Part shown: positions 21,455 through 56,307 of the stretch, piece after piece
How positions within the stretch are numbered: position 1 is the first letter of the stretch
How the letters are laid out: each line of letters starts with the position of its first letter
Assembly (NCBI RefSeq): GCF_000018605.1
Contig: NC_010003.1
Location: 1,340,501-1,404,500, forward strand
Direction of reading: 5' to 3'
From: Petrotoga mobilis SJ95
Lineage (GTDB): Bacteria > Thermotogota > Thermotogae > Petrotogales > Petrotogaceae
DNA: 64,000 bases
The notes under the pieces: generated by a model
Databases searched by the model: none
What the model saw: the letters and a program-made list of their open reading frames with translations, nothing else
What the model was told of the DNA's origin: nothing
Made by a program: the position numbers and the translations under genes

Positions 21455-24400
21455 CTAAAAAATTTCTCTATTTTTCAATACTCCATCGTCTATATTCACC
21501 TCAAAATTCTTCGACTCTATCATCTTCATTAAATCCCTGACACTTTTGTTCTCGTTCCTTCTTTGCCGTGAGGCTGTCTTTCCTTGAACCCCCTTCGGGG
21601 CGCTTGAGGCTGTCTTCCTTATTTGCCGTGAGGCCGTTTCTTTGATCCTATTTCTCAAAAAGCTCAAGATATTGATCTTTGTTTTTTCGTTCAAGTTATG
21701 ATAATGAACTAAAAAACCACAATCTCTCTTTCCCAACTTCCAAACAATAGGCCTATCTTTATAAAACTTTTCATGAAGTTTTAGGTAATCTTTAAAGATA
21801 TAATCCCTCAAATCTTTCTTCACAATACTCTCTAATTCAGAACGCTCCTTGAATATTGAGGATAACAGTTTATTTTCTTCTTCAACTGAAAACCCAAAAG
21901 GGATAAAACCATCTTCGCAATTCAAAAGATACCTTTGGATCCCATTATCTATTCTTACAAAAGCTAATTTTGCTAAAATCTGATCTTGGTTACTCATACT
22001 GTTGTAAACGGAAATAGGACTTTGAAAACTTTCTTCTGCTTTTCTTTCCACATAGTTATCGTATGGCTCTCTTCGATGATAGTTGGTTACACCTTCATCA
22101 AAAGGAATAATGGAAATTAAAGACCTGATTTTATTATTATAAGCCTCTTTAATAAAATTTTCTATTTTGGTAAGTTGAGCTTCATTCAAACCAAATTCAT
22201 AAAGATACTGGTTTTTCAACAGTTCTTTCAATGGGGGCAAACCCTTTATACCTTTATCGGTAGAAAAAGGGAAAAAGGCCGTAGGAATCCCCACTGTTTT
22301 ATAAATCTCCTCAAAATTTCTTTCTTTCAAACTGTACAACTCCATCACCAGTATATCTATCAAACCTTCAGAAAGAAGCATATACGTATCAAGAGCGTTT
22401 TTACTCTCTATGAAACCATAAAACTTAGAAACGCCATCGATACTCTCCTCGTTGAAATGCAGTTCGTTTGGATATATCTCGGTATTCTGCTTTTTAATTG
22501 CCACGTTCAATCTAGCAAGCGTTTCTAACGCCTGAGTCTCAGAAGAACCCTCAAACAAACCTTGTGGAACGGGAAGCTTTTTCAAATCCCCAACTTCCAA
22601 ATCCACGCTTCCTGCAATAAAACTCTCCAAATAAGAAAACAAACTACTATTGAGTAAGCCCAAAAACCTAAAGATATCTTCATCTTTTGAAAAGAACAAA
22701 CTACTACCCTTACAATCGAACAAGAATCCTGAGGGGAGATATCTAAAAGTTGCCCCTTTCGAGGTTGTCATCGTGTAAGTTATACCCTTTTTAAAATAAT
22801 ACTTTCTATTTGGAAGATAGTTCCCCATTTTTGACAATAGATTATAATTCTCTTCATCGAAGGCTATAACCCACCACAAATTACCATACCATTTATTGTA
22901 AGGTCCACCTTTGGCATATGGGACCCATTTCTTTCCATCTTTAATATCCTCTCTTCTAACTTCCCAAAAGTACCTCAAAAACCTGTTGTTATTCCCGGTA
23001 GCTATCCCCTGTCGTGCATCAGCAAACTTCTCCAAAGGTTCGTTTTCAAAGGTACGTACAACGTCTGAATCCACCCAATAAATGAAAGGAAACCTCGGAA
23101 CCTTTGTAAAAACCCTCTTATCAACCTTGAAAACATACTTAGAAAGATAATTCTCTCTCTTCTTTTCCTCACTTGCCGTGAGGCTGTCTTTCCAAATAGA
23201 AAATAAAGCACGTTTCTTAGAATCTTTTCCGTTAAAAGAGGTCAAGTTTATATATTCACCCAAACTTTTCTCCTCACTTGCCGTGAGGCTGTCTTTCCTT
23301 GAACCCCCTTCGGGGCGCTTGAGGCTGTTTTCCTTATGTGCCGTGAGGCTGTTTTTACTTTTCCTCAAAACAAACATCGCTGTGTCCACTAAAGCGTTAT
23401 CAAACACCCCTCCAAGGCCAAAATGAACCAATCTCTCTATCTGAAAGTTATCTAATATGAACCTTCTTGTCTTCTCATAGCTCCCAATAAACATAAAGGT
23501 TTGAGGGGTAATCATACCAACAAATCCATCCATCTTCACCAATTCGCAACTCTTTTTAATAAAGCAGGCGTACAGATTTTTTTTAAACTCACTATAATCC
23601 TCGTTTATGTACCTCTTCAATTCAAAATCATAATCAGAGGAATCCAAATAAGGAGGGTTGGTTAAAACAACATCGTACTTCAAAGAAAGAATATCTAAAG
23701 CTTTCTTCAATGGTTCATCGTTTATACCTGACTCCTTTAAACTTAAAACATCCTCTGTTCTCATCAAGCTCCCAATCTTTTCAAACTTCTTCAAATACTC
23801 ATTCTGCCCTTCTTCATTTGTCGTGAGGCTGCCTTTCCTTGAACCCCCTTCGGGGCGCTTGAGGCTGTTCTCTTTCGGAACAGCTACTATGTTTGTTTCA
23901 ATCCTCTCATATGCTCCATCTTCTAAAGCCTTCAATCTCAACAACAAATTCGTAATTTCAACAGCGTTCTCATCGATATCTATACCGTATAAATTCTTAG
24001 TAATTATAAGTTTTGGAATCAAAGCATCATCGTAACCTTTATTTTGATACATCTCTCTCAACTTATCGTAAACCCCTATAACAAAGTTCCCACATCCACA
24101 AGCAGGGTCAATAATCTTAACATCCTCAAGGTCTACTCCCTTATCATCACCTGCCGTGAGGCTGTCTTCCTTATGTGCCGTGAGGCCGTTTCTTCCGTAA
24201 TACTTCCCCAACGTATTTTCCACCAAATAATCCACTATCCATTTTGGGGTATAAAACTGTGAAATAACACCATTTTTACCCTTTAAATCCTTACCTGCCA
24301 TGAGGCTGTCTTTGCTTGAACCTCCTTTGGGGCTCTTGAGGCTGGCTTCGTTGAAATACTCGTAAGACCAAGAAATAATTTCCTCTTTCTTCCAATCTTC

Positions 24401-24832
24401 ATCTTTCACACTCTGAAACAAATCTCTGACTTTTTCTATTGTTTGGCTAGTAATTCTGCTTTTAATATCATCGACTAAATAACAACAATCAAAATTTCTA
24501 TTCAGAAATTGCACCCCAGAAAGATAACTACCCAACAGATTCGAATCTGAACCACTCTTTCCAAAAAGTTGTAAATCTCCCTCCATATTTGCGGTGAGGC
24601 TGTCTTTCCTTGAACCCCCTTCGGGGCGTTTGAGGCTGTTTCCCTTTGCCTGTAAAACTCTTAGGACAATAAAACTCAAAAAAACATCCAACAAAACTCT
24701 CCCCTCACCTGCCGTGAGGCTGTCTTTCCTTGAACCCCTTTCGGGGCGCTTGAGGCTGTCTTCCTCATTTATGACCTCTTTTTGCAGGATGCTCTTAAGC
24801 TCCAAAGCCATTTTTTTAACGGATCTGTTCAA
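21455..24832 (-). CDS. PglX-like adenine-specific DNA methyltransferase with many inserted repeats, 1125 aa
   Basis: A class I N6-adenine methyltransferase related to BREX PglX and type IIG enzymes. Motif I is IIDPACGCGNFVIGVYDKL, a YGIDIDENAVEITNLL segment follows, and the catalytic motif is VVLTNPPYLDSSDYDF. After that come FVGMITPQTFMFIGSYEK and the PglX-type target-recognition part (KKWVPYAKGGPYNKWYGN, then LNSSLFSYLESFIAGSVDLE). No BREX partners (PglZ, BrxC, BrxL) are in the window. At least eight sites carry in-frame copies of a short repeat read as NSLKRPEGGSRKDSLTA or, in another frame, KTASRQ. These interrupt the N-terminus, linkers and C-terminus but spare the motifs. It starts at TTG 24832, after AAGGTGG and overlapping the ATPase stop (ATG 24811 is an alternative). 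It lies convergent to the TAC operon. Confidence 0.82.
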   Translation of the reverse strand: MNRSVKKMALELKSILQKEVINEEDSLKRPERGSRKDSLTAGEGRVLLDVFLSFIVLRVLQAKGNSLKRPEGGSRKDSLTANMEGDLQLFGKSGSDSNLLGSYLSGVQFLNRNFDCCYLVDDIKSRITSQTIEKVRDLFQSVKDEDWKKEEIISWSYEYFNEASLKSPKGGSSKDSLMAGKDLKGKNGVISQFYTPKWIVDYLVENTLGKYYGRNGLTAHKEDSLTAGDDKGVDLEDVKIIDPACGCGNFVIGVYDKLREMYQNKGYDDALIPKLIITKNLYGIDIDENAVEITNLLLRLKALEDGAYERIETNIVAVPKENSLKRPEGGSRKGSLTTNEEGQNEYLKKFEKIGSLMRTEDVLSLKESGINDEPLKKALDILSLKYDVVLTNPPYLDSSDYDFELKRYINEDYSEFKKNLYACFIKKSCELVKMDGFVGMITPQTFMFIGSYEKTRRFILDNFQIERLVHFGLGGVFDNALVDTAMFVLRKSKNSLTAHKENSLKRPEGGSRKDSLTASEEKSLGEYINLTSFNGKDSKKRALFSIWKDSLTASEEKKRENYLSKYVFKVDKRVFTKVPRFPFIYWVDSDVVRTFENEPLEKFADARQGIATGNNNRFLRYFWEVRREDIKDGKKWVPYAKGGPYNKWYGNLWWVIAFDEENYNLLSKMGNYLPNRKYYFKKGITYTMTTSKGATFRYLPSGFLFDCKGSSLFFSKDEDIFRFLGLLNSSLFSYLESFIAGSVDLEVGDLKKLPVPQGLFEGSSETQALETLARLNVAIKKQNTEIYPNELHFNEESIDGVSKFYGFIESKNALDTYMLLSEGLIDILVMELYSLKERNFEEIYKTVGIPTAFFPFSTDKGIKGLPPLKELLKNQYLYEFGLNEAQLTKIENFIKEAYNNKIRSLISIIPFDEGVTNYHRREPYDNYVERKAEESFQSPISVYNSMSNQDQILAKLAFVRIDNGIQRYLLNCEDGFIPFGFSVEEENKLLSSIFKERSELESIVKKDLRDYIFKDYLKLHEKFYKDRPIVWKLGKRDCGFLVHYHNLNEKTKINILSFLRNRIKETASRQIRKTASSAPKGVQGKTASRQRRNENKSVRDLMKMIESKNFEVNIDDGVLKNREIF

Positions 24833-25989: not shown

Positions 25990-26074
25990 AAAATCACCTC
26001 AGCATTCCAAAAATTTTTTCTTCCCAATAGTAATATCTGCAAAAAAATAAATTTTCAAAAAATAAAAGAAATCC

Positions 26075-26610
26075 TTAAGGGGTGGGGGGCGGGAAAAGAT
26101 AATAAAAAATCGACTCACCTTTGTTTTCTCCCTACAAAATGAGAAAAAATATATTATATATTTTTAAATATATTTATATTAATAACATAATACCTTATAG
26201 GCTGTCCCAAAAATTGACCCACACCTGGGTCAAAATTTGACCCAAAACTGTCCCATTTTTTGACCCAGGTGGATCAAAAATTTATCCTCTGAGGGTGGTG
26301 GGTGGGAATAGATAATAAATCTTAAAGTCAAAGCCTTTAAAAAAGTGTTCATAAGGGGCAAAGCCCCTTCCACTAGGGGCGGGGGGCGGGAATAGATAAT
26401 AAAAATTTTTTTAAATACTCTCAAGCCTTTAAGGCTACCTAGCCTTCAGCAGTATCACAAAGGGCGCAGCCCTTTAACTCTCCCCAAAGCTTGATTAGCT
26501 TTGAAAAAAAAGGGATCACATGGGGCAAAACCCCTTAATGCTTAGGAATCATAAGGGGCGAAGCCCCTTCATCCACTAGGGGTGGTGGGCGGGAATAGAT
26601 AAAACAGTAA
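26075..26610. repeat. Four G-rich repeats with hairpins in an otherwise empty 0.65-kb gap
   Basis: Similar G-runs (GGGGTGGGGGGCGGG and variants) followed by AATAGATAATAAA occur at 26079-26093, 26291-26306, 26376-26390 and 26579-26593. Between them are AAGGGGC-AAA-GCCCCTT-type hairpins. The G-runs could form quadruplexes. There is no coding potential; the iteron-like block sits inside this region. Confidence 0.7.
26202..26267. repeat. Iteron-like repeats upstream of the winged-helix operon
   Basis: CTGTCCCA, 4-nt gap, TTGACCCA occurs twice in direct orientation with a 46-bp period (26202-26221 and 26248-26267). Two more TTGACCCA half-sites lie between them, one inverted (26226-26233) and one direct (26237-26244). 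The middle pair forms the palindrome TGGGTCAAAATTTGACCCA. The layout fits an operator or replication iterons for the neighbouring winged-helix protein. Confidence 0.55.
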
Positions 26611-26667
26611 ACAATTATTTACCACAATTTAAGTATTCTTACGGATACTATTAGTGGAGGTGAGAAA

Positions 26668-26874
26668 ATGAAAGAAATAGTAGGACTAATACCTGACCTT
26701 GTAAAAATGGTGGAAGTACCTGGCAACGGCAAAAAGAAAAAAGAAATCGTCCTAAACGCGGTAAGAGAATTCCTAAAATCCATCGGCAAATACTCTCCGA
26801 TCATGGACCTAATAATCTCCATACTCATCGACGGAGTAGTAGCATTACTATTTCCAAAACCAGAAAAAGCATAA
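26668..26874 (+). CDS. Small hypothetical protein with a hydrophobic C-terminus, 68 aa
   Basis: The start ATG 26668 has GGAGGTGAG upstream. The product has a short N-terminal helix (MKEIVGLIPDLVKMVEVPG), a lysine patch (NGKKKKE) and a hydrophobic C-terminal helix (IMDLIISILIDGVVALLF) that could sit in a membrane. I do not recognise a family; its size and shape recall holin- or YvrJ-like small proteins. It is followed by genes resembling DUF1659 and DUF2922 families, which often occur together in Bacillota, so it is probably the first gene of that small operon. Confidence 0.6.
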   Translation: MKEIVGLIPDLVKMVEVPGNGKKKKEIVLNAVREFLKSIGKYSPIMDLIISILIDGVVALLFPKPEKA

Positions 26875-26946
26875 AATGATTTCTCCCCGGGGAAGCAAGG
26901 CAACACAAACCAAAGAAAAACAAAAACACACAGGAGGTGGTAACAC

Positions 26947-27147
26947 ATGGCAATGAACTTAGAGTCAAGAAAGGGAAAGATCGTCTGGATAAGCCTAGTA
27001 GACGGAAAAGAAGAAAAAAAGTATAAAACCTATGATTTATTCACCGACGTAGAAGCAGACATAAAAACCGCCTTACAAGGATTAGTCTCACTCTGTGAAA
27101 ACACCAACGCTGTCTATTACTTCGATGAAAGTTACGAAATAATCTAA
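26947..27147 (+). CDS. Small protein resembling DUF1659, 66 aa
   Basis: AGGAGGTGG precedes ATG 26947. The product MAMNLESRKGKIVWISLVDG continues with a charged stretch, then LFTDVEADIKTALQGLVSL and a short C-terminus. The strand-then-helix pattern and length match DUF1659 proteins, whose function is unknown to me. The next gene resembles DUF2922, its usual neighbour, which supports the call. Confidence 0.55.
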   Translation: MAMNLESRKGKIVWISLVDGKEEKKYKTYDLFTDVEADIKTALQGLVSLCENTNAVYYFDESYEII

Positions 27148-27164
27148 AAAGGAGGAAATAGCGA

Positions 27165-27374
27165 ATGAGAAGATTAAGAATGAAATTCTATGACTCAGCA
27201 GAAGGAAAAAGCAAAACCCTATCAGTTGATGGAGTATTAGAAACACTAACGCAAGCAGAAATAGAACCAATAATGCAAAGCTTGATAGGTGTATTAGTAC
27301 CAACAACCGCACAAGTAGACGAAGCAGAAATCGTTGAAACAACGACAAATGAAGTATTCAACCTCATTCAATAA
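27165..27374 (+). CDS. Small protein resembling DUF2922, 69 aa
   Basis: The sequence RRLRMKFYDSAEGKSKTLSV is followed by LTQAEIEPIMQSLIG and a C-terminal ETTTNEVFNL. It follows the DUF2922 pattern of 'L...F....gk...lsv....lt..ei...M..li'. It starts 17 bases after the preceding gene with AAAGGAGGAAATAGCG. Function unknown. It ends just before a strong terminator, so the three small genes are one transcript. Confidence 0.6.
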   Translation: MRRLRMKFYDSAEGKSKTLSVDGVLETLTQAEIEPIMQSLIGVLVPTTAQVDEAEIVETTTNEVFNLIQ

Positions 27375-27382
27375 AGAAACAC

Positions 27383-27416
27383 ACTCATGCCTCTTGACGG
27401 GGCATGAGTTTTTTTG
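27383..27416 (+). terminator. Terminator of the small-protein operon
   Basis: ACTCATGCC, TCTTGACG loop, GGGCATGAGT followed by TTTTTTT. It is a classic intrinsic terminator. Confidence 0.9.
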
Positions 27417-27441
27417 ATATATTAGTATACGCACGTATAAT
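27414..27441 (+). promoter_or_regulatory. Promoter for the sigma-like gene
   Basis: TTGATA (27414-27419), a 16-bp spacer and TATAAT (27436-27441), placed about 28 bases before the coding start. It is close to the sigma-A consensus. Confidence 0.75.
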
Positions 27442-27468
27442 ATACTTGTAAAAAAGGGGGAAACCACT

Positions 27469-27852
27469 ATAAAACATCAAAACTACACCAAACTAACGGA
27501 CCAAGAACTAGTATCACTCTCCAAAAAAGGCGACAAAAAATCAAAAGAAACCCTATTCACCAAATACAAAGGCTTCCTTGTCAACGAAGCAAACAAACTC
27601 ACCCAAAGTTGCGGGATAGACTTTGAAGACAGCTTTGGAAGTTTAACCTACCTCTTCCTATGTGCAATAGACAACTTCAATCTCAAAGGAAATTTCACAG
27701 GATACATGAAAAAATTTGTACAACTAAAAATAAAAAACGACATTGGAAAAAGAAAAGCAAAAATGCCCTATGTACCAAAAGAGTACCCCTTTTACCTAAG
27801 AAACTTAGAAGAAGTAATGATCGTGGAAGAAGACCTAGCTCATTATGAATAA
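27469..27852 (+). CDS. Sigma-70 region-2-like protein, 127 aa, apparently starting at ATA
   Basis: The frame reads QNYTKLTDQELVSLSKKGDK, TLFTKYKGFLVNEANKL, GIDFEDSFGSLTYLFLCAID and YMKKFVQLKIKNDIGKRK. This is the layout of sigma-70 region 2 (core-binding 'eLv.l...Gd' and '..eD...e' parts) without region 4. A good promoter and an AAAGGGGG ribosome binding site are correctly spaced for a start at 27469, but that codon is ATA. No ATG, GTG or TTG occurs in frame until about codon 79. Either a rare ATA start is used or the gene has lost its start. Similar short sigma-like proteins accompany DUF1659/DUF2922 clusters. Confidence 0.55.
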   Translation: MKHQNYTKLTDQELVSLSKKGDKKSKETLFTKYKGFLVNEANKLTQSCGIDFEDSFGSLTYLFLCAIDNFNLKGNFTGYMKKFVQLKIKNDIGKRKAKMPYVPKEYPFYLRNLEEVMIVEEDLAHYE

Positions 27853-27927
27853 ATTTCCCTTCCATAAAAGGGCGGGCTTCAGAATAAAGAAATAAAGATT
27901 TCCTTCCTTATGATCGAACTAGGGGAT

Positions 27928-28265
27928 TAAAGGGACGGAGGGCCCTCTTCCACATGGGTGGGGAGCGGGGGAAGGGCGCTAACAAAGACTAAGCACAGCT
28001 TACATAAAAAAACTCAAAAATTAATTCACAAAAGTAAAAATCTGCTTTTAAAAAGGGTCACAGGGCGAAGCCCTCCCCCAGCCAGTTTAAGGGACCGCAG
28101 GTCCCTCTTCCACATGGGTGGGGAGCGGGGGAAGGGCGCTAACAAAGACTAAGCACAACTTAAATAAAAAAACACAAAAATTAATTCACAAAAATAAAAA
28201 TTTACTTTTAAAAGGGTCACAGGGCGAAGCCCTCCCCCCGGGTTTAAGGGACCGCAGGTCCCTTG
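27928..28265. repeat. Tandem pair of a 160-bp G+C-rich intergenic repeat
   Basis: The two units contain, in order, CCCTCTTCCACATGGGTGGG, AAGGGCGCTAACAAAGACTA, an A-rich stretch, the hairpin AGGGCGAAGCCCT and AGGGACCGCAGGTCCCT. The same unit is found in inverted orientation at 61795-62190. It fills the gap between the sigma-like gene and the polysaccharide region. Confidence 0.8.
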
Positions 28266-28333
28266 CTTAAAATGGCCGTTATATAAAATAACAACAACCT
28301 CAATCAAAATGTAATGAAATTATAATAAAAATT

Positions 28334-28361
28334 TTGTTTTCATAAAAAATTATGTTATAAT
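28334..28361 (+). promoter_or_regulatory. Promoter at the head of the polysaccharide region
   Basis: TTGTTT (28334-28339), a 16-bp spacer and TATAAT (28356-28361), 57 bases before the first gene start. Confidence 0.6.
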
Positions 28362-28418
28362 AACAACAATGAAAACGTTTTTTCATTTAAGCAAAATCTC
28401 TCGGGGGAGGGGCTCCCT

Positions 28419-29069
28419 ATGTATATCGACATCAACACCCATCTTCTACCCAATGTTGATAACGGCTCACAAACTCTTGAAGAAACGTTAAGAGAATTAA
28501 ACAATTACAAACAACATGATATAACTCATGTTATCTTCACCCCACACATAAACCATCCAACCATAAAAACAGATATAACAAAAATAAAGGAAAAATACGC
28601 CGAAGTTAAAGAAACAATAGAATACAACACCGGTGTAAAAACCTATTTAGCATCTGAATTATACCTAACACCACAATATAACGAATTCATTCCATTCAAC
28701 GATCACTTTGTTTTTATAACCCTACCAACAGAAGCTTTCCCAATATTTCTCCTTGACTCAATCTTTCAATTACAGTTGGATGGATACGATATCGTACTAC
28801 TACAAGTTGAAAAATACGATTGGCTACTCGAAATGAAAGACGTCCTTCACAGACTAAAAGAAATGGACGTTTATTTCTGTTTGAGCTTTAATGGCTTAAA
28901 CTCAAAAGCAGCAAAATTCTATCGAGACAAACATTGTTTAGATTTTTTGGCAACGAACAACAAAGCCAACAACAACGAAAAAGAAATCAACTTAAGTCTG
29001 TTTAAAAAATACTCACCAATAACTGAAAAAGCCTTTGACATATTGAACATAAGCAATGTACCAGAATAA
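28419..29069 (+). CDS. CpsB/YwqE-like PHP protein with a degenerate metal site, 216 aa
   Basis: The fold signature of the PHP-type tyrosine phosphatase that controls polysaccharide export is clear: MYIDINTHLLPNVDNGSQTL against the usual 'DIHSHilpgiDDG', then VIFTPHINHP and ASELYLTP. Several metal ligands are changed, however. The first His of 'HSH' is Asn (DINTH), the usual 'HPERY/HIERY' segment is LQVEKYDW, and the final 'SD.HN' is TNNKANN. The conserved His of TPH and the Glu of SELY remain. The enzyme is therefore probably inactive and may work as a binding or regulatory protein. The start ATG 28419 follows GGGGGAGGGG. Confidence 0.7.
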   Translation: MYIDINTHLLPNVDNGSQTLEETLRELNNYKQHDITHVIFTPHINHPTIKTDITKIKEKYAEVKETIEYNTGVKTYLASELYLTPQYNEFIPFNDHFVFITLPTEAFPIFLLDSIFQLQLDGYDIVLLQVEKYDWLLEMKDVLHRLKEMDVYFCLSFNGLNSKAAKFYRDKHCLDFLATNNKANNNEKEINLSLFKKYSPITEKAFDILNISNVPE

Positions 29070-29157
29070 AACAATTTTTAATATTCGTTTAATATTTAAA
29101 CATTAAGATAATGTTATAATAAATCTCGAAAAACAAATCAGGGGGTTAGACTCGAAG

Positions 29158-30438
29158 ATGCGAAAAGCAGCGGTTCACTTATTAGACATAGCGCTCATAT
29201 TCATTATGAACGCCTTCTTAATGAACCTACCAATAACCATCTCAATAATCTCATCTCTAATAATATACCTCGGGATATACTCCTTCAGAACATACGACAC
29301 AGAAACAATGAAAAGTTACACAGAATCTCTAATAAAAACCACCGTTGGAACTCTTGTGAGTTTCATCGTCATACTAATTATCTACTTCTTCCTAAGTAAG
29401 TACTTCAACAGATACTTTTTCCTTACCAACCTATTGTACACAATAGCCCTCTTACCAATAATACACAAAATAGAATACAATATCTACGAAAAACACATGC
29501 CTGTAAAAAATTACCTCGTAATAGGCAGAAAAGAAGAAATAGGCAACATAATGGAAGAAATCTCAGAAAAAGCGCTCAACAAAATAAAGTTCACACAATA
29601 CATAAACCCAAACCCAGTAACACTTGATGAAATAATAAAACAAAACACACAAAAAACATTAACCCAAACAATACACGGCATAGTAATAACAGACCCAGAA
29701 CTAGAAGAAAAGGTAAAACCACAAATACAAAACTACAAAGCAGAAGGTTTAGAGATTCAATACTTACCGAACATGGTAGAAAAATACTTAAAACGCATAC
29801 CAATAGAAGTCGCTCAAAAATTCAAAGAATATTACGAGGTGGTGTTTCAAAACGTTCAACCATCTCCATCACAACAGATAATAGACAAGTTCTTTGGAAC
29901 TTTACTTTTAATACTATTCTCCCCGTTTATGTTGATAATAAGCCTAGCTATATTGATCGAAGACGGCAAACCCATTATTTACAAACAAAAAAGAATGGGA
30001 AAAGACGAACAAATATTCATTATAAACAAGTTTAGATCTTTGAAAGAAGCAGAAATAGATCCAAATGATCCAAACAAAGATATAGAAAAACGTGTTTTAA
30101 AAAGTGGGAAAACAATAAGAAAGTTAAGACTTGACGAACTGCCCCAGTTTTTGAATATAATAAAAGGAAATATGTCTATTGTAGGTCCTAGGCCAGAAAT
30201 GCTGGAGTTTCATAACATGATGTCAAATCAAATTCCCTTCTACAATTACAGACTCAAACTAAACCCAGGAATAACTGGGTGGGCACAGATACACTACAAG
30301 CACACATCAACCCTTGAAGACTACATAAAAAAAACAGAATACGATCTGTATTACATAAAAAACAGGAACATATTTCTAGATATTAAAATAATGCTCAAAA
30401 CAGTTGAAACAATGTTAGGAATGAGGGGGACAAGGTAA
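29158..30438 (+). CDS. Polyprenyl glycosylphosphotransferase (initiating sugar transferase), 426 aa
   Basis: The N-terminal part has four membrane helices (LDIALIFIMNAFLMNLPIT, then TLVSFIVILIIYFFLSKYF) and a soluble central domain of the WbaP/WcaJ kind. A fifth hydrophobic segment (FFGTLLLILFSPFMLIISLA) leads to the bacterial sugar-transferase domain. Its motifs are KQKRMGKDEQIFIINKFRS, LRLDELPQFLNIIKGNMSIV, GPRPEM and PGITGWAQIHYKHT, all intact. The enzyme moves a sugar-1-phosphate onto undecaprenyl phosphate at the inner membrane face, the first step in building the repeat unit. It follows the CpsB-like gene, the typical order at the start of capsule/O-antigen loci. Confidence 0.92.
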   Translation: MRKAAVHLLDIALIFIMNAFLMNLPITISIISSLIIYLGIYSFRTYDTETMKSYTESLIKTTVGTLVSFIVILIIYFFLSKYFNRYFFLTNLLYTIALLPIIHKIEYNIYEKHMPVKNYLVIGRKEEIGNIMEEISEKALNKIKFTQYINPNPVTLDEIIKQNTQKTLTQTIHGIVITDPELEEKVKPQIQNYKAEGLEIQYLPNMVEKYLKRIPIEVAQKFKEYYEVVFQNVQPSPSQQIIDKFFGTLLLILFSPFMLIISLAILIEDGKPIIYKQKRMGKDEQIFIINKFRSLKEAEIDPNDPNKDIEKRVLKSGKTIRKLRLDELPQFLNIIKGNMSIVGPRPEMLEFHNMMSNQIPFYNYRLKLNPGITGWAQIHYKHTSTLEDYIKKTEYDLYYIKNRNIFLDIKIMLKTVETMLGMRGTR

Positions 30439-30941
30439 ACCAAATAAATTATATCAAATTACGGCTTCCATCGTTGCGTATAATAACTAAATAGAAGAAA
30501 TAGAAAAATCAAAGCAACTTCGTAAATAACAAATATAAGGTAAAGAATAATAAAAATAGGTAAAATTATTCTTTCAATAAGACTATATGAGACATTCCAG
30601 TTCTATGATATATTAAAAGGTGATTGCCTTTTATAAGTTCAAGATTCGAATAGATAAAGTTTATGATATTTTGGAAAAAGGGAGTTAAAGATCACAAAGT
30701 TTTAATTTTTATAACAGAAAAAATATGGAAACTAAAATTTAAGATAGTATTTCATTATATCGATGAAATTGATATGATCAGAATAATATCTAAAGTAATA
30801 TATCCTATATTTTAAATTCACAGATATTCGAAAAAGGCTATATTAAAATAAAAAACAAGGACCTGGTTTACTTGCCATCAAATCTTTAAAATGAAGAAAA
30901 ATTGTTAAATCACATTAGTTATGAAATATTCGGAGGCTTGG
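30439..30941. other. Gap with no recognisable gene
   Basis: About 500 bases of AT-rich sequence with stop codons in all frames. A short open stretch near 30633-30690 (IAFYKFKIRIDKVYDILEKG) could be debris of a decayed gene. I see no RNA gene, promoter or repeat. Confidence 0.5.
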
Positions 30942-32168
30942 ATGATGCATTATGAAGAAGAATACGACTTGGTTTTATTTCCGCAAACTTTTTATCCTGA
31001 TGTTGATGCAACTGCAAAACTGATGACAGACTTAGCGGAATTTCTGGTAAAAAAGGGGAAAAAAGTTCTGATAGTTACCCCAAATAGGTCTTTTGAACGA
31101 CCTAATCTAAGATATCCAGAATTCGAAATAATAGATGATATACATGTACATAGAATAAAAGTTCCTAAACTCGATAAAAATAATGCCCTTCAAAAAATTT
31201 TACTTTTTTACCTATTTTCAACTAAAGCAAAGAGATTTCTGAAAAAATTGAATTACAAAGTTGCAATGGCTATTTTACCTCCTTTTTTTGTTGCATATAA
31301 AACATTAAAAGTTACTAAGAAAAAAGGGAAGAAATTTATTTTCTTACTTCACGATTTATATCCAGATTCACTCGTAAAATGGAAACGAGTTTCACCAAAC
31401 AATCCATTAGTAATATTATTGAAAAAATATAATAATTACATTTTTCGAAATTCAGATAAAACAATTTTTGTAGGTAGAGATCAGATAGAATATGTAAAAG
31501 AAAATTATGGTGTTAGCAATGAGAAAATCGAATTTATTCCTAATTGGGCAAAAGATTTAAAAGAAAGTTTTATAAAAAATGATTCTATAAAAGAAAAATA
31601 TTATAAACCAGGATTCAATGTTCTATATGCAGGGAATATTGGAGAGGCACAAGTAAAAAGCTTGGAAAAAGTTATTAAATTGATGAAAAATGAAAAGTTA
31701 GTCGCTAATTCTATTAATTTAATATTGGTGGGCCAAGGAAGAAGGAAAGATTACTTAATAAATATGGCAAAAGAAACAAGTAATGTATATTTTTTTGATT
31801 ACGTATACGATTTTTCTGATTATCAAAATTTAATATATTTTTCTGATTGTTGCCTTGTATCAATGAGAGATGAATCTAAAGGGATGTCTGTTCCAAGTAA
31901 AACTTATTATTATTTAAGTGGGGGAAAACCGATTTTAGCTGATGTTCCAGTAAATTCAGAAGTTGATATTTTGCTACGAGAAAACAATGTTGGAATTAAT
32001 ATAACCAAATTAAATGAGGAAGAGGCGATTGAAAACATATTAATGCTAAAAAATAATAAAGAATATTACAAAGAATTATCCAAAAATGCTCGAAAAGCTT
32101 TTGAAGATAAATATTCAAAAGAAGTCGCTTTAGAAAGTTATTTACGAGTTGTTGAAAATTTACTTTGA
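30942..32168 (+). CDS. Family 4 glycosyltransferase (WbuB-like), 408 aa
   Basis: A GT-B glycosyltransferase. The N-terminal domain holds LVLFPQTFYPDVDATAKLMT and LLHDLYPDSLVK. The C-terminal nucleotide-sugar domain holds NVLYAGNIGEAQ, INLILVGQGRRKDYL and SVPSKTYYYLSGGKPILADV, the acidic 'E' region being replaced by the SVPSK form usual in WbuB-like enzymes. Those enzymes typically transfer N-acetyl-L-fucosamine, which fits the CapE/CapG genes downstream. ATG 30942 is chosen because GGAGG lies five bases upstream; an earlier in-frame ATG (30921) has no ribosome binding site. It acts at the inner membrane face. Confidence 0.85.
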   Translation: MMHYEEEYDLVLFPQTFYPDVDATAKLMTDLAEFLVKKGKKVLIVTPNRSFERPNLRYPEFEIIDDIHVHRIKVPKLDKNNALQKILLFYLFSTKAKRFLKKLNYKVAMAILPPFFVAYKTLKVTKKKGKKFIFLLHDLYPDSLVKWKRVSPNNPLVILLKKYNNYIFRNSDKTIFVGRDQIEYVKENYGVSNEKIEFIPNWAKDLKESFIKNDSIKEKYYKPGFNVLYAGNIGEAQVKSLEKVIKLMKNEKLVANSINLILVGQGRRKDYLINMAKETSNVYFFDYVYDFSDYQNLIYFSDCCLVSMRDESKGMSVPSKTYYYLSGGKPILADVPVNSEVDILLRENNVGINITKLNEEEAIENILMLKNNKEYYKELSKNARKAFEDKYSKEVALESYLRVVENLL

Positions 32169-33295: not shown

Positions 33296-34423
33296 ATGAA
33301 TAAAATAATGACAATAGTTGGTACAAGGCCTGAATTAATAAAACTGAGTTTAGTAATTAAGGAACTTGATAAACACACGAACCATATATTAGTCCACACA
33401 GGGCAAAATTATGATTATGAATTAAATCAGATTTTTTTTAAAGATTTAGAAATTAGAAAGCCAAATTACTACTTAAATGTCGCAGAAGAAAATCTTGCAA
33501 AAACCATTGCAAAAATAATAGAAAAATCAGATGAAGTTATGGAAATAGAAAAACCAGAAGCTATTTTAATATATGGGGATACAAACAGTTGCTTATCAGT
33601 TATTCCTGCTAAAAGGAGAAAAATACCTATTTTTCATATGGAAGCAGGAAATAGATGCTTTGATCAGAGAGTCCCAGAAGAATTAAATCGGAAAATCATA
33701 GATCATTTATCGGATATAAATATGGTTCTGACAGAACATGCACGGCGATACCTTATTCGAGAAGGAATAAACCCTGAAACTATAATCAAGGTTGGTTCTT
33801 CCTTAGTAGAAATTTTTGAGCACTTCAAATCTAAGATACAAAATTCAAACATTTTGAACGAATTAGGATTAAAAGAAAAGGATTACATAGTAATCAGTCT
33901 TCACAGGGAAGAGAATGTTGATAATCCCAGAAACTTCGATAATTTTCTAAAATCCCTGTCGAATATTCAAAAATACTATGATAAAAAAATAATTATTTCT
34001 ACTCATCCAAGGACAAGAAAAAAGATTGAACAAAATGCAACTTTTTTCAAAGATGATAATATAAGTTTTTTAAAGCCCTTTGGTTTTTTTGATTATGTTA
34101 AATTAGAAACCAACTCTTTTTGTGTATTATCTGATAGTGGAACTATAACAGAAGAAGCTTCTATTTTGAAATTTCCTGCCGTTACCTTAAGGCAGGCTCA
34201 TGAAAGGCCCGAAGGAATGGATGAAGGAACATTAATAATGACAGAAATTAACTCTGACAGTATAATAAACGCTATTAATATCGTAACAAACCAGGCAAAA
34301 GAAGGCTTTGAGTTAAAAACAGTCTCAGATTACGAATCAAAAAATGTTTCACAGAAAGTGATAAGAATAATCGTCAGTTATATAGAATACGTCAACAGAA
34401 CAGTATGGTTTAAGCACACATAA
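33296..34423 (+). CDS. capG: CapG/WbjD-type UDP-N-acetylhexosamine 2-epimerase, 375 aa
   Basis: A UDP-GlcNAc 2-epimerase fold with IVGTRPELIKLSLVI, HTGQNYDYELNQIFFKDLEI, ILIYGDTNSCL, HMEAGNRCFDQRVPEELNRK (the 'RCFD.RVPEE' form typical of the L-fucosamine/L-quinovosamine branch), ISLHREENVDNP and LSDSGTITEEASIL. It would invert C-2 of the UDP-2-acetamido-6-deoxy-L-hexose made by the CapE-type enzyme and its reductase. It belongs to the same operon as the genes on both sides. Confidence 0.88.
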   Translation: MNKIMTIVGTRPELIKLSLVIKELDKHTNHILVHTGQNYDYELNQIFFKDLEIRKPNYYLNVAEENLAKTIAKIIEKSDEVMEIEKPEAILIYGDTNSCLSVIPAKRRKIPIFHMEAGNRCFDQRVPEELNRKIIDHLSDINMVLTEHARRYLIREGINPETIIKVGSSLVEIFEHFKSKIQNSNILNELGLKEKDYIVISLHREENVDNPRNFDNFLKSLSNIQKYYDKKIIISTHPRTRKKIEQNATFFKDDNISFLKPFGFFDYVKLETNSFCVLSDSGTITEEASILKFPAVTLRQAHERPEGMDEGTLIMTEINSDSIINAINIVTNQAKEGFELKTVSDYESKNVSQKVIRIIVSYIEYVNRTVWFKHT

Positions 34424-37194: not shown

Positions 37195-38268
37195 ATGAAA
37201 CTACTCAGTTTAATAGGAGCTCGTCCACAGATAATCAAAGAAGCGATTCTAAATAAAGAATTTGAGAAAAAAGGAATAAAAGAAATCTTGGTTCATTCTG
37301 GTCAGCATTACGACTTCAATATGTCAGATGTGTTCTTTAAAGTTTTAAACATAAGAAAAGCTGATTACAATTTAGGGGTAGGTTCAGCAACGCATGCCCA
37401 AATGACGGCTAAAACAATGATAGAGTTTGAAAAGGTTGTATTAAAAGAACATCCTGATATTATATTAGTGTATGGGGACACAAATACTACATTAGCGGGA
37501 GCAATAGTTGGAGCAAAATTAAAGATCCCTGTTGCCCATGTGGAAGCAGGGATAAGGCAAGAACCAAAAGACATGCCTGAAGAGATAAATAGAGTATTAA
37601 CGGATCGTATATCAAAATACCTATTTTGTCCTTCTGAACTAGCTGTAAATAACTTAAAAAAAGAAGGTATTACTGAAGGAGTGTATTTCACAGGAGATAT
37701 AATGTACGATCTCTTTTTAAAGATGAAGCCATATTTCAAAGAAGATATTATAGACGAATTGAATTTGGAAGAAAATAAATACATAGTCACTACGATTCAT
37801 AGGGATTTCAACACAGACAGTAAAGAAAAACTAGAGAGTATATTGAAAGAGTTAGACAAAATAACAAAAGAAATAAAGGTTGTTTTTCCCATACATCCAA
37901 GAACCAAAAAGAGAATAGGTGAATTTAATTTTAATGAATACACAAAAAATATCTTATTGATAGAACCTCTAGATTACTTAAGTATGATGGGATTGGTACA
38001 AAAGAGCCATCTTGTAATAACAGACAGTGGAGGATTGCAAAAAGAAGCATACTTTGCAGGGAAAAAAGCAATAGTTGTTATGCCAGACACAGGTTGGAGA
38101 GAATTAACACAAGCAAGTTGGAATGTACTAAGTGAACCTAATGAAATCAAAAATAAGTTTCATCATATAATGAGCAACGAAATATCTTCAAATGTAGAAA
38201 ATATATATGGAGACGGGAAAGCAGGGGAAAAGGTTGTAACCTACCTAGAAAGTAATATTGTAAAGTAA
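37195..38268 (+). CDS. Non-hydrolysing UDP-GlcNAc 2-epimerase-like enzyme, 357 aa
   Basis: The family pattern is complete: LIGARPQIIKEAILNKEF, HSGQHYDFNMSDVFFKVLNI, VYGDTNTTLAGAIVGAK, HVEAGIRQEPKDMPEEINRV, TIHRDFNTDSKEKL, PIHPRTKKRI and ITDSGGLQKEAYFAGKKAIV. The 'GARPQ' start and 'HYD.NMSDVFF' are closer to WbpI/2-epimerases of diacetamido uronic acids and to generic WecB homologues than to CapG. Substrate remains open. It is one of three paralogous epimerases in this locus (33296, 37195, 43592). AGGAGAATTTAC precedes ATG 37195. Confidence 0.85.
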   Translation: MKLLSLIGARPQIIKEAILNKEFEKKGIKEILVHSGQHYDFNMSDVFFKVLNIRKADYNLGVGSATHAQMTAKTMIEFEKVVLKEHPDIILVYGDTNTTLAGAIVGAKLKIPVAHVEAGIRQEPKDMPEEINRVLTDRISKYLFCPSELAVNNLKKEGITEGVYFTGDIMYDLFLKMKPYFKEDIIDELNLEENKYIVTTIHRDFNTDSKEKLESILKELDKITKEIKVVFPIHPRTKKRIGEFNFNEYTKNILLIEPLDYLSMMGLVQKSHLVITDSGGLQKEAYFAGKKAIVVMPDTGWRELTQASWNVLSEPNEIKNKFHHIMSNEISSNVENIYGDGKAGEKVVTYLESNIVK

Positions 38269-43591: not shown

Positions 43592-44701
43592 ATGAAAACA
43601 GCGATGATATTTGGAACACGGCCAGAAGCAATAAAAATGGCACCGCTATACAAAAAGATGAAAGAAGAAAATATGGAGGTAAAAGTAATAGCAACCGCTC
43701 AACACAGAGAAATGCTCGATCAAGTGTTGAATCTTTTCGAAATAAAACCAGACTACGACTTAAATATAATGACAAAAAATCAAACTCTACCACAACTAAC
43801 TTCAAAACTAGTTACAGAGATAGATAAAATACTAAAAATTGAACCATTCGATTACATACTAGTACAAGGGGATACAACCTCCACTTTTGTTGGAAGTCTC
43901 GCTGCTTTTTACAACAAAATATTTGTTGGGCACGTGGAAGCGGGTTTAAGAACGAACGACATATACAACCCCTTCCCAGAAGAAATGAACAGAAGACTAA
44001 CAGGTACAATTGCAAAGCATCACTTTGCTTCTACCCAAAAGGCAAAAGATAACCTACTAAAAGAAGGTGTAGAAGAAAAAAACATAATAGTAACAGGGAA
44101 CACGGTTATAGATGCATTACTATGGGTAAAAGAAAATAAAAACAAAGATATAGAAAAGATAAAAGAAAAGTACAACATAAAGAACAAAAAGTTTATCTTA
44201 ATAACCATGCATAGAAGAGAGAACTGGGGAAAACCGATAGAAAACGTAATGAAAGCGATAAAAAGGTATCTACATGAAAACGAAGAGATGCACATAGTAT
44301 TTCCAGTTCACTTAAATCCGATAGTGAGAGAAAGTGTGTATAGAATACTTGGGAATGAAGAAAAAGCTATACTGATAGACCCAGTAGAATACTTAGAATT
44401 CATAGCGTTAATGGACGAAAGCCATTACATAATGACAGATTCAGGAGGGATACAAGAAGAAGCACCCACATTGGGCAAACCAACGTTGGTGTTAAGAGAA
44501 ACAACGGAAAGACCCGAAGCTATAGAAGCAGGAACAGCAAAATTAATAGGAACGCAAGAAGAACAAGTGTATCAAGCCATGAAAGAACTAGAAACAGAAA
44601 AATATGCACAAATGAGCAAAGCAAGCAATCCTTTTGGAGATGGGAAGGCATCTCAAAGAATCGTTGAATTTTTGAAAGGAACAATTCTATTTAATATTTA
44701 A
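43592..44701 (+). CDS. wecB: UDP-N-acetylglucosamine 2-epimerase (WecB type), 369 aa
   Basis: A complete non-hydrolysing 2-epimerase: MIFGTRPEAIKMAPLYKKMK, ATAQHREMLDQVLNLFEIKP, ILVQGDTTSTFVGSLAAFY, GHVEAGLRTNDIYNPFPEEM (catalytic EAGLRT), TMHRRENWGKP, PVHLNPIVRESV, MTDSGGIQEEAPTLGKP and RETTERPEAIEAGTAKLIG. It converts UDP-GlcNAc to UDP-ManNAc in the cytosol to supply ManNAc or its derivatives to the polysaccharide. ATG 43592 follows AAGGAGCTCTCCAA. Of the three epimerases here it is the closest to true WecB. Confidence 0.93.
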   Translation: MKTAMIFGTRPEAIKMAPLYKKMKEENMEVKVIATAQHREMLDQVLNLFEIKPDYDLNIMTKNQTLPQLTSKLVTEIDKILKIEPFDYILVQGDTTSTFVGSLAAFYNKIFVGHVEAGLRTNDIYNPFPEEMNRRLTGTIAKHHFASTQKAKDNLLKEGVEEKNIIVTGNTVIDALLWVKENKNKDIEKIKEKYNIKNKKFILITMHRRENWGKPIENVMKAIKRYLHENEEMHIVFPVHLNPIVRESVYRILGNEEKAILIDPVEYLEFIALMDESHYIMTDSGGIQEEAPTLGKPTLVLRETTERPEAIEAGTAKLIGTQEEQVYQAMKELETEKYAQMSKASNPFGDGKASQRIVEFLKGTILFNI

Positions 44702-49805: not shown

Positions 49806-51330
49806 TTTCGTGGGAGAGTATTGTAGAAAAGGAAGTAGAGGTGTATAACGAAGTCTTAAATAGATTTGGAGGAAGTAATGCCTAAAGAGAGAGAATTTAT
49901 TAAATCTTTTTTTCAGTTTTCAATGGGTCAATGGATAGCTGCTTTGATTTCCTTCATCACTACTCCTATTACCACTTGGCTTATAATCCCAGAGGAGTTT
50001 GGTAAGGCATCGATGTTTACTTTGGCTTTCAATTTACTTCTCAACGTTGCACTTCTTGGAGCGGATCAGAGCTTTGTTCGTATGTTTTATGAAAGGTCTG
50101 AGGATAAGAGAAGGGATTTACTTTGGGATTCTTTGTTGCCGAGTTTGAGTATAGGCGTTGTTGTTTTTGTTGTCATTGGTATCTTTTGGAAAGAGTTGTC
50201 TTTCATTCTTTTTGGAGATTATAATCATTTTCTTCCGATTTTTTTGTTGGGCGTTACCATATTAATCGGTATTTTAGAGAGATTTTCCACTTTGGCTGTT
50301 CGGATGAAAAAAAGAGGTATCGCTTTTTCTACGTTGAGGGTAGTAAACGGAGTAACAAATGCGGTTTTTACAATTTTATACGCCCTTTTTGTTTCAAGAA
50401 GTTTTTATGCTGTTATCATTGGTTTGTTTTTTTCTCATATAGTTACCGCTTTATTAGCGATCTTTTTTGAAAGAGAATTGTGGTTTGGTAAGTTCAAAGT
50501 TGATTTTAAATCTATAAAAGCGATTGTTAGGTACGGTCTCCCTTTTGTTCCTACTTTTTTAATTACTTGGCTTTTTCAATCGATAGATAGGTTGTCGTTA
50601 AGAAATTATTCTGATTTCACGGAGATAGGTTTGTATTCTGCTGCTTTCAAAGTAGTTTCAGTGATGAGCTTAATTCAAGCTGGTTTTACTACGTTTTGGA
50701 CTCCCGTTTCTTATGAAAGCTACGAAAAAGAACCTGAGAGTAAGGGGATTTTTGAGAAGACCTCTGTGTTTATAGCCGCTGCGATGTTTGTGTTTGGATT
50801 GCTATTAGTTGTGTTTAAAGATGTGATATTTTTGCTTTTAGAGAGTTCTTATAGGCAGGCGGCTGGAATTAGCTCTTTTTTGATTTTGATGCCTATTATG
50901 TATACTGTTTCTGAAACGACGGTTGTTGGTATCAATTTTAAGAAAAAAACATATTGGCATATGTTGATAGCAACTGTGGCAGCAGGGGTTAACGTGTTTG
51001 GGAATTTGATGCTTGTTCCTGTATATGGTGCAAAAGGTGCAGCATTTTCTACTGGGGTGTCGTATATAGTTTTCTTTTGTATGAGGACGTTTATATCTAG
51101 GAGTTTGTTCCCTGTTAATTACCATTTGGGTAAATTTTTTATTAGTACCTTTGTTTTTGTGGTCGTTGCTTTTATAAACACTTTTGTTATTAATATGGTT
51201 TTTCAGGTTGTGTCTGCTGTTTTGGGTTTGATCGTTGTAATGTTTGTGTATAGAGATCAGGTGAAATATGTGTTTGATTTGGGGGTTGATTTGATGAGGG
51301 AAGTGAAGGAGAGGGTTGCTAGCAGGTGAA
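49806..51330 (+). repeat. 1.5-kb segmental duplication of 56228-57752
   Basis: It begins inside the last 25 codons of the upstream glycosyltransferase (TTTTCGTGGGAGAGTATTGT) and extends through the whole flippase gene. The two copies appear identical over the first ~1.27 kb and differ at scattered positions only in the last ~230 bases. The pattern indicates recent duplication or gene conversion. Confidence 0.9.
49878..51329 (+). CDS. Polysaccharide flippase (MATE/Wzx type), copy 1, 483 aa
   Basis: A 12-14 helix transporter of the polysaccharide biosynthesis/MOP superfamily. Hydrophobic segments alternate throughout, from SMGQWIAALISFITTPITTW to a C-terminal VAFINTFVINMVFQVVSAVL. Typical features are LVRYGLPF-like IKAIVRYGLPFVPTFLITWL and a QSIDRLSLRNYSDFTEIGLY segment. 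It would flip undecaprenyl-linked repeat units across the membrane. ATG 49878 follows GGAGGAAGTA. It has no complete glycosyltransferase upstream, only the last codons of one, so this copy arose by duplication from 56300. Confidence 0.9.
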   Translation: MPKEREFIKSFFQFSMGQWIAALISFITTPITTWLIIPEEFGKASMFTLAFNLLLNVALLGADQSFVRMFYERSEDKRRDLLWDSLLPSLSIGVVVFVVIGIFWKELSFILFGDYNHFLPIFLLGVTILIGILERFSTLAVRMKKRGIAFSTLRVVNGVTNAVFTILYALFVSRSFYAVIIGLFFSHIVTALLAIFFERELWFGKFKVDFKSIKAIVRYGLPFVPTFLITWLFQSIDRLSLRNYSDFTEIGLYSAAFKVVSVMSLIQAGFTTFWTPVSYESYEKEPESKGIFEKTSVFIAAAMFVFGLLLVVFKDVIFLLLESSYRQAAGISSFLILMPIMYTVSETTVVGINFKKKTYWHMLIATVAAGVNVFGNLMLVPVYGAKGAAFSTGVSYIVFFCMRTFISRSLFPVNYHLGKFFISTFVFVVVAFINTFVINMVFQVVSAVLGLIVVMFVYRDQVKYVFDLGVDLMREVKERVASR

Positions 51331-55095: not shown

Positions 55096-56307
55096 GTGAA
55101 GGTACTGTTCATAACAAATTTGTTGCCATTTTCTCATAATCCTGCACGTGGGATTTTCATAACAAATAGGCTTAAAACTATGCAAAGTTTTGATATAAAC
55201 TTCGATGTTTATGGTATTACTTCTAAAGATTCTTTTGGAGTAAAATTTTTAAAAAAGATTCTTTCTATACCAAGCGTAAATTCTACTGATTCATTTTATG
55301 AAGTCGATGGTGTAAAATACAAATATGCGTCTTTTAGTAGAAGTTTAGGTGATGTCTTTAATTCGAGAGTATTGAAGAAAAATAATCAAATTAAAGATTC
55401 AAAAGAAGTTGCAGAGGATCTATTTGATAAAATTAAGCATAATGAGTTTGATATAATCCATGCCCATGGGATGTATGACGCACCTGCTGGATTAGTTGCG
55501 AAACTGTTATCGCAAAAGTTAAGTGTTCCATATGTAGTTACTTGCCATGGTAGCGATATAAACTTAGCGATGCCTAAGGCAAAAGAATTGTACGTTGATG
55601 TTTTAGAAAATGCTGCAAAGGTTATCTTTGTAAGTAATGCCTTATTGAACAAAGCTAAATCATTTGGATATGCTGGTGAGAATTCTGTTGTTATTCCCAA
55701 TGGAATCGAACCAGATATCTTTAAACCTTTGGATAAAGAAAAGATAAAAGAAGAACAGGGGCTGTCTAAAAAGGTTGTTGGGTTTGTAGGTGGATTGAAG
55801 AAAGTAAAAAGGGCAGATAAATTGCCCGAAATTTTTTCTTACATTTCTTCAATCTACGATGCTGAGTTTTTAGTTGTTGGAGATGGTGAGTTAAGAAAAG
55901 ATATTGAAAATGAATGTAAGAAAAGAAAGTTGCATGTTAAGTTTGTTGGAAGTGTTTCTCATGAAGATGTACCTTATTATATGAATGCTATGGATGTAAT
56001 GATACTTCCGAGTAGGAATGAAGGCTGGCCGTGCGTTGTATTGGAAGCACAGGGATGTGGGGTAGCTGTTGTTGGTAGCGGCAACGGAGGTATACCTGAG
56101 GCAATTGGAGATGGAGGAATAGTTGTAGAAGAAGGAGAAGATTTTGAAAAAAGGTTTGCTCAATCGGTTGTAAAGTTGTTAGAAAATCCAATTGATGGTA
56201 GTTATTTAAGAAAAAGGGCTTTGGGGTTTTCGTGGGAGAGTATTGTAGAAAAGGAAATAGAGGTGTATAACGAAGCTTTAAATAGATTTGGAGGAAGTAA
56301 TGCCTAA
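55096..56307 (+). CDS. Family 4 glycosyltransferase, 403 aa
   Basis: A complete GT-B enzyme. The N-terminus is VLFITNLLPFSHNPARGIFI. The acceptor domain has DIIHAHGMYDAPAGL and YVVTCHGSDINLAMP. The donor domain has KVIFVSNALLNKAKSFG, VVIPNGIEPDIFKPL, FVGGLKKVKRADKL, FLVVGDGELRKDIE and MILPSRNEGWPCVVLEAQGC (the E.....E motif), then GSGNGGIPEAIGDGG. The start is GTG 55096. The end overlaps the flippase start by eight bases, indicating coupled translation. Its final 25 codons are duplicated at 49806. Confidence 0.9.
   Translation: MKVLFITNLLPFSHNPARGIFITNRLKTMQSFDINFDVYGITSKDSFGVKFLKKILSIPSVNSTDSFYEVDGVKYKYASFSRSLGDVFNSRVLKKNNQIKDSKEVAEDLFDKIKHNEFDIIHAHGMYDAPAGLVAKLLSQKLSVPYVVTCHGSDINLAMPKAKELYVDVLENAAKVIFVSNALLNKAKSFGYAGENSVVIPNGIEPDIFKPLDKEKIKEEQGLSKKVVGFVGGLKKVKRADKLPEIFSYISSIYDAEFLVVGDGELRKDIENECKKRKLHVKFVGSVSHEDVPYYMNAMDVMILPSRNEGWPCVVLEAQGCGVAVVGSGNGGIPEAIGDGGIVVEEGEDFEKRFAQSVVKLLENPIDGSYLRKRALGFSWESIVEKEIEVYNEALNRFGGSNA

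Follow-up and report, generated by a model that had tools for sequence, protein, structure and literature searches.

The closest described relatives of the protein considered here are the PHP-type tyrosine phosphatases Cps4B of Streptococcus pneumoniae, YwqE and Wzb. In Cps4B, the metal ligands are reported as H5, H7, E80 and D199 at M1, E80, E108 and H136 at M2, and D14, H42 and H201 at M3, with the phosphate bound by R139 and R206 (PMC2777267). The R139A and R206A variants are given 5% and ~40% of activity, and some ligand mutants in the family retain 1–20% (PMC2777267). For Wzb, the H5A-H7A and H42A-H43A pairs are described as losing up to 99% of activity and H197A-H198A as losing 75%, with 25% left (PMC2364625); the same paper cites a pneumococcal CpsB double mutant, D199N/H201Q, in which capsule is lost as in a deletion.

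Two further systems inform the comparison. The PHP domain of Escherichia coli DNA polymerase III (Pol III) has five of its nine ligands replaced, arginine standing at position 9, and regained metal binding after three changes (PMC3666897). According to the same source, the polymerase PHP consensus at position 8 is D or N, and a PolC altered solely by D-to-N at position 8 binds metals and is inactive (PMC3666897). By our own matching of positions, position 8 corresponds to D199 of Cps4B and position 9 to H201. In Streptococcus suis, CpsB is bound and inhibited by CcpS, a dimer with disordered regions that is not called a CpsB homologue in the part of that paper drawn on here (PMC10148854).

The window (the whole stretch of 64,000 nucleotides analysed here) contains a degenerate CpsB/CapC paralogue that we name cpsB2 (Table 1). 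The first-pass annotation had located it correctly and described its frame as intact, and we agree: the ORF opens with ATG and encodes 216 aa with no internal stop. The product matches Pfam CpsB_CapC (PF19567) over residues 2–154 (6.3e-19; score 68.8 bits, cut-off 27), and phmmer matches to structures of YwqE and CpsB range from 1.6e-5 to 1.7e-4. An AlphaFold2 model computed from a 34-sequence alignment (pLDDT 94.5, pTM 0.91) has YwqE and Cps4B as its top structural matches (Z 25.3, rmsd 2.3 over 211 residues for Cps4B, 2wjd); the next other family to be matched is a phosphotriesterase homology protein, at Z 13.7. By profile and model, cpsB2 belongs to the CpsB/CapC family of PHP proteins, and its CpsB fold is predicted with confidence.

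Table 1 Features of the cpsB2 region, in window coordinates
Feature	Position	Strand	Basis
Small helix-turn-helix-like ORF, apparent ATA start	27469..27852	+	Relatives near other clade-B loci
Extended -10 promoter-like element TGTTATAAT, 5' of cpsB2	28353..28361	+	Sequence
Shine-Dalgarno-like GGGGGAGGGG	28403..28412	+	Sequence
cpsB2, degenerate CpsB/CapC paralogue	28419..29069	+	216 aa; ORF, profile, alignment, predicted fold
N6 codon, replaces ligand H5 (M1)	28434..28436	+	Alignment, codons
N15 codon, replaces ligand D14 (M3)	28461..28463	+	Alignment, codons
T101 codon, replaces ligand E108 (M2)	28719..28721	+	Alignment, codons
Q129 codon, replaces ligand H136 (M2)	28803..28805	+	Alignment, codons
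K132 codon, replaces catalytic R139	28812..28814	+	Alignment, codons
N180-N181-K182 codons, replace D199-x-H201 (M1 and M3)	28956..28964	+	Alignment, codons
Extended -10 element before sugar-phosphotransferase gene	29112..29120	+	Sequence
Polyprenyl-phosphate sugar phosphotransferase	29158..30438	+	PF02397, TIGR03025; relatives 3' of three other clade-B copies

In alignment with Cps4B and YwqE, the nine ligand positions are occupied in cpsB2 by N6, H8, N15, H43, E80, T101, Q129, N180 and K182. Three ligands survive (H7, H42 and E80, as H8, H43 and E80) and six are lost, at N6, N15, T101, Q129, N180 and K182. What remains is two of the four ligands at M1 (H8 and E80), one of three at M2 and one of three at M3 (H43). 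Both phosphate-binding arginines are also altered, R139 to K132 and R206 to E187, and cpsB2 carries N and K where the pneumococcal D199N/H201Q mutant has N and Q. The earlier claim that most metal ligands had gone, which quoted the motifs DINTH, LQVEKY and TNNKANN (all found in the protein), proves somewhat understated, having missed two losses, D14 to N15 and E108 to T101. Judged from its sequence, loss of catalysis in cpsB2 is well supported. The case rests on all six losses taken together, because N at position 8 alone would still be compatible with metal binding.

Two alternatives bear directly on these residues. That cpsB2 is still an enzyme, working with fewer metals or by new chemistry, strikes us as improbable. 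H8 and E80 at M1 and H43 at M3 leave a weak metal site possible, ligand mutants of the family keep the 1–20% (PMC2777267) or 25% (PMC2364625) mentioned above, and a change of R139 to lysine is milder than R139A; yet M2 and M3 are each down to a single ligand of three, R139A lowers Cps4B to 5% activity (PMC2777267), and cpsB2 has lysine at the H201 position and glutamate at that of R206. That the changes stem from faulty sequencing, assembly or alignment is scarcely credible: we found no point that supports it, the host genome is one contig of 2,169,548 bases, the frame is open, degenerate relatives lie at the equivalent place in three other genomes, and by the genetic code the six losses together need at least eight base changes (E-to-T and H-to-K at least two each).

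The genome encodes a second CpsB, at 996769–997404 and about 372 kb away, which is 57% identical to cpsB2 and keeps all nine ligands, its DIHCH, HVERY and TDNH motifs intact. This paralogue adjoins a Wzc-type kinase of 732 aa that ends in a poly-tyrosine tail. TIGR01007 has a single match over cut-off in the genome, at 997492–998109, about 371 kb from cpsB2, and three further matches below cut-off, all outside the window. The first-pass annotation had seen no kinase near cpsB2, which is right for the locus but not for the genome, where a Wzc-type kinase sits beside the intact paralogue. Its premise that an active phosphatase would be expected at this site has to be corrected, the intact copy being placed by the kinase elsewhere and cpsB2 being a separate and probably older paralogue. 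Since the intact kinase/phosphatase pair is located at another locus, cpsB2 is an extra copy.

A survey of 103 genomes of the phylum, with matches accepted to E 1e-8, a threshold that would pass over weaker relatives, returned 48 CpsB copies in 44 genomes, and all 48 were read for ligands. Two copies occur together in four genomes (the window's, G007, G011 and G013), each of which holds one copy beside a kinase-like ORF (A) and one copy 5' of a sugar-phosphotransferase gene (B). The B copies, cpsB2 among them, are monophyletic, with support of 97.7/100 in a 34-sequence tree and 99.6/100 in a 48-sequence tree; the A copies as a clade are weak in the first (87.7/63) and absent in the second. All nine ligands and R139 are kept in 44/44 non-B copies. 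Within clade B, one ligand is lost in G007 and in G013 (D199), three in G011 (H5, E80 and D199) and six in the window. The motif-IV aspartate D199 is lost in 4/4 of these copies, R206 is changed or gapped in 4/4, and R139 is lysine in three. Close orthologues with all ligands had been named earlier as a finding that would speak against degeneration; none of the three other clade-B members is complete. The idea that cpsB2 arose by recent breakage of a duplicate of the intact paralogue was also considered and is ruled out, because clade B is monophyletic and lies apart from the A copies.

The G007 and G013 B copies retain eight of nine ligands and could retain activity, a point in favour of residual enzyme function in the group. 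By analogy with the polymerase PHP domains, loss of D199 alone is no proof of death in the milder B copies.

The neighbourhoods of the two groups were compared from ORF lists, read by eye; the kinase profile check was confined to the window's genome. No kinase-like ORF was seen near the B copies of G007, G011 and G013 (stretches of 18–20 kb), and all eight A copies examined (8/8) adjoin a long kinase-like ORF. A sugar-phosphotransferase gene lies 3' of the clade-B copy in 4/4 genomes. Searches for clade-B relatives matched 29 plasmid records, none covering 80% of the query, and found none in viral contigs; a scan of wider genome contigs gave three loci, two of them remote Acholeplasma matches.

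Rates and patterns of change bear on the main rival reading, in which cpsB2 is a functionless duplicate in early decay, dispensable and on its way out of a locus head that is often exchanged or lost, the active site having gone first as catalysis was unneeded and the frame not yet being broken. We judge this unlikely, though it carries real weight. On pairwise values, comparison of the G013 and G007 B copies gives 16.5 synonymous changes and 6.5 nonsynonymous ones (dN/dS 0.09), D199 being already lost in both, so a copy lacking this ligand is under purifying selection, which argues against decay. Between cpsB2 and its nearest relative, in G011, dN is 0.236 and dS is 1.6, near saturation; for the A copies in these two genomes dN is 0.201. 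Relative-rate counts for cpsB2 against the G011 copy with four outgroups are 20:23, 25:22, 24:18 and 23:22 (p 0.44–1.0), and this equality with its sister again tells against decay. Clade B changes at a somewhat higher rate than the A copies do (p 0.002 to 0.29 in 12 tests), as decay would have it, the largest contrasts reaching 29:15 for the window and 33:12 for G013.

For an active-site set of 12 positions (the nine ligands, D3, R139 and R206), with invariance judged in 15 intact copies, cpsB2 is changed at 8/12, against 6/49 other invariant positions (p = 3e-4; p = 0.001 and 0.024 with two other reference sets). Its damage is therefore concentrated at the active site, not spread. Outside the active site, cpsB2 has no more changes than its relatives (6/49 against 6, 8 and 8/49), a further point against decay. 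The excess is significant for cpsB2 only: the G011 copy has 4/12 against 6/49 (p = 0.10) and the G013 and G007 copies 3/12 against 8/49 (p = 0.37), with p = 0.10 to 0.82 for these three across the reference sets. The earlier suggestion that the gene is maintained is thus supported by the intact frame, the focused damage and the constraint on G013/G007, the one clade-B pair in which selection could be measured; cpsB2 itself has no close sequenced relative.

Upstream signals had likewise been claimed for cpsB2. The ribosome binding site is good, with GGGGGAGGGG close 5' of the ATG; the promoter claim holds in so far as an extended -10 element, TGTTATAAT, begins 66 bases 5' of the ATG, with a predicted transcript start near 28368, but this element is unlisted in a consensus scan. 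Extended -10 elements begin 66 to 97 bases 5' of the MY/FID start in 4/4 clade-B copies. That frame, ribosome site and promoter-like element are all intact in cpsB2 also weighs against decay. A second extended -10 element follows cpsB2, so that cpsB2 and the phosphotransferase gene may be separate transcription units. One is also found in every clade-B gap before the phosphotransferase, in L038 574 bases away. Rfam at its gathering threshold gave no match in window positions 26000–31500 or in L038, L039, L040, L075 and L076, and the RNA fold at the cpsB2 start codon is nothing unusual (z -0.54).

The distribution of the gene among close relatives favours decay. cpsB2 is absent from 5/5 sampled species of its genus, and is therefore dispensable at least there. 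The helix-turn-helix gene directly adjoins the phosphotransferase in four, G001, G002, G004 and G005, with cpsB2 missing between; in G003, cpsB2 is absent from both phosphotransferase loci. A second phosphotransferase copy in the window's genome, which carries only a remnant of cpsB2, points the same way. The phosphotransferase tree is mosaic and does not separate loss of cpsB2 in congeners from its gain with the locus.

This second phosphotransferase (G000 983200–984477; L075 7065–8479) is 94% identical to the first. On its 5' side stands the truncated remnant, the final ~48 bases of cpsB2; this recombination scar lies about 12 kb from where the kinase and the intact phosphatase are encoded.

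The locus has plainly been exchanged between genomes. Comparing L039 with L040, which come from two mutually congeneric genomes, cpsB2 and the four genes before it are close (dN 0.009–0.038, dS 0.06–0.53). For G013 against G007, dN is 0.013 for cpsB2 and 0.244 for the phosphotransferase directly after it, so a cassette-exchange boundary seems to lie directly 3' of cpsB2 (L039/L040).

Several other features of the locus were recorded. The helix-turn-helix ORF lacks an ATG, GTG or TTG both where it begins and over the ~40 bases 5' of that point; ATA stands at a fitting distance 3' of a GGGGG ribosome site. ATA is also present in L076, L078, L079, L080 and L081, which represent five further genomes of the genus, and the same position is ATG in G011, ATG in G013 and ATT in G007. 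A rare start codon of this kind, of which infC is an example, could serve translational control. Among the relatives of this ORF, only that of G011 is matched by the HTH_16 profile, just below cut-off. Two copies of a longer repeat lie between the helix-turn-helix gene and cpsB2, at about 27.9–28.25 kb of the window, and peptide repeats of type SLKRPEGGSRKDSLTA occur inside coding sequence at window 21455–24832 (-), which suggests a short DNA repeat within genes. Three ORFs of 487 aa share the same N-terminal residues (window 49866–51329 and 56288–57751, and L034 8580–10043 near the kinase locus), the first 60 residues having been compared for two and the first 45 for the third; they may be copies of one flippase-like gene. 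The UDP-GlcNAc 2-epimerase family (PF02350) is represented by three different genes in the locus, at 33296–34423, 37195–38268 and 43592–44701.

Taking this evidence together, we think cpsB2 is probably a pseudophosphatase, a non-catalytic protein that is maintained. The pseudo-enzyme reading of the first-pass annotation is upheld in part: loss of catalysis follows it as far as sequence can tell, but the premise of an expected site needs correcting. On this reading, cpsB2 would retain its PHP fold and, probably, a promoter of its own, while the three-metal centre could no longer form and phosphotyrosine hydrolysis would not be expected. It may act as a binding module in the control of polysaccharide assembly, on a putative partner, the likeliest candidates being the poly-tyrosine tail of the genome's single Wzc-type kinase or the neighbouring sugar phosphotransferase. 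Were the kinase tail the partner, cpsB2 would compete for it with the intact CpsB of the distant locus. We regard a simple phosphotyrosine trap as less probable than binding by way of the protein's exterior, because the pocket is altered, with its metal sites broken, R139 changed and R206 replaced by glutamate.

A more specific proposal we put forward tentatively and with some doubt. cpsB2 might be a dedicated bacterial pseudophosphatase, a regulator of the tyrosine-kinase/phosphatase cycle at the head of an exchangeable locus, and the series of one, three and six losses among nine ligands might record a stepwise passage from enzyme to pseudoenzyme that began with the motif-IV aspartate. Among the open-licence PMC papers listed in our literature searches, judged by title and opening of the abstract, we found none describing a pseudo-CpsB, which is weak evidence of absence. 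CpsB-family proteins would probably be labelled phosphatases by profile alone, and cpsB2 should not be. If cpsB2 is maintained, clade B offers a natural series for metal loss with the fold kept, and lets one ask whether the CpsB surface works apart from catalysis.

Set beside the systems described at the outset, cpsB2 has in common with Cps4B (PDB 2wjd/2wje), YwqE (3qy6) and Wzb the family profile and the full-length fold, the latter as predicted, and its gene likewise stands at the head of a polysaccharide locus. It differs from them in having six of nine ligands and both phosphate arginines changed, in being without an adjoining tyrosine kinase and in being extra to an intact copy. By analogy, DNA polymerase III offers a precedent for a PHP site that is dead while the fold persists: as reported for the E. 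coli enzyme, the PHP fold is kept with an incomplete ligand set, and R203 of Pol III, like K182 of cpsB2, is basic at ligand position 9 (PMC3666897). The Pol III PHP is, however, a structural domain inside a large polymerase (PMC3666897), whereas cpsB2 is a free-standing protein and not part of a C-family DNA polymerase. Eukaryotic pseudophosphatases likewise have a dead active site and are kept as possible regulators, although those described in the source used here belong to other phosphatase families (PMC9464862), and the regulatory role of cpsB2 is putative. CcpS provides an example of CpsB activity being governed by a protein that binds it (PMC10148854).
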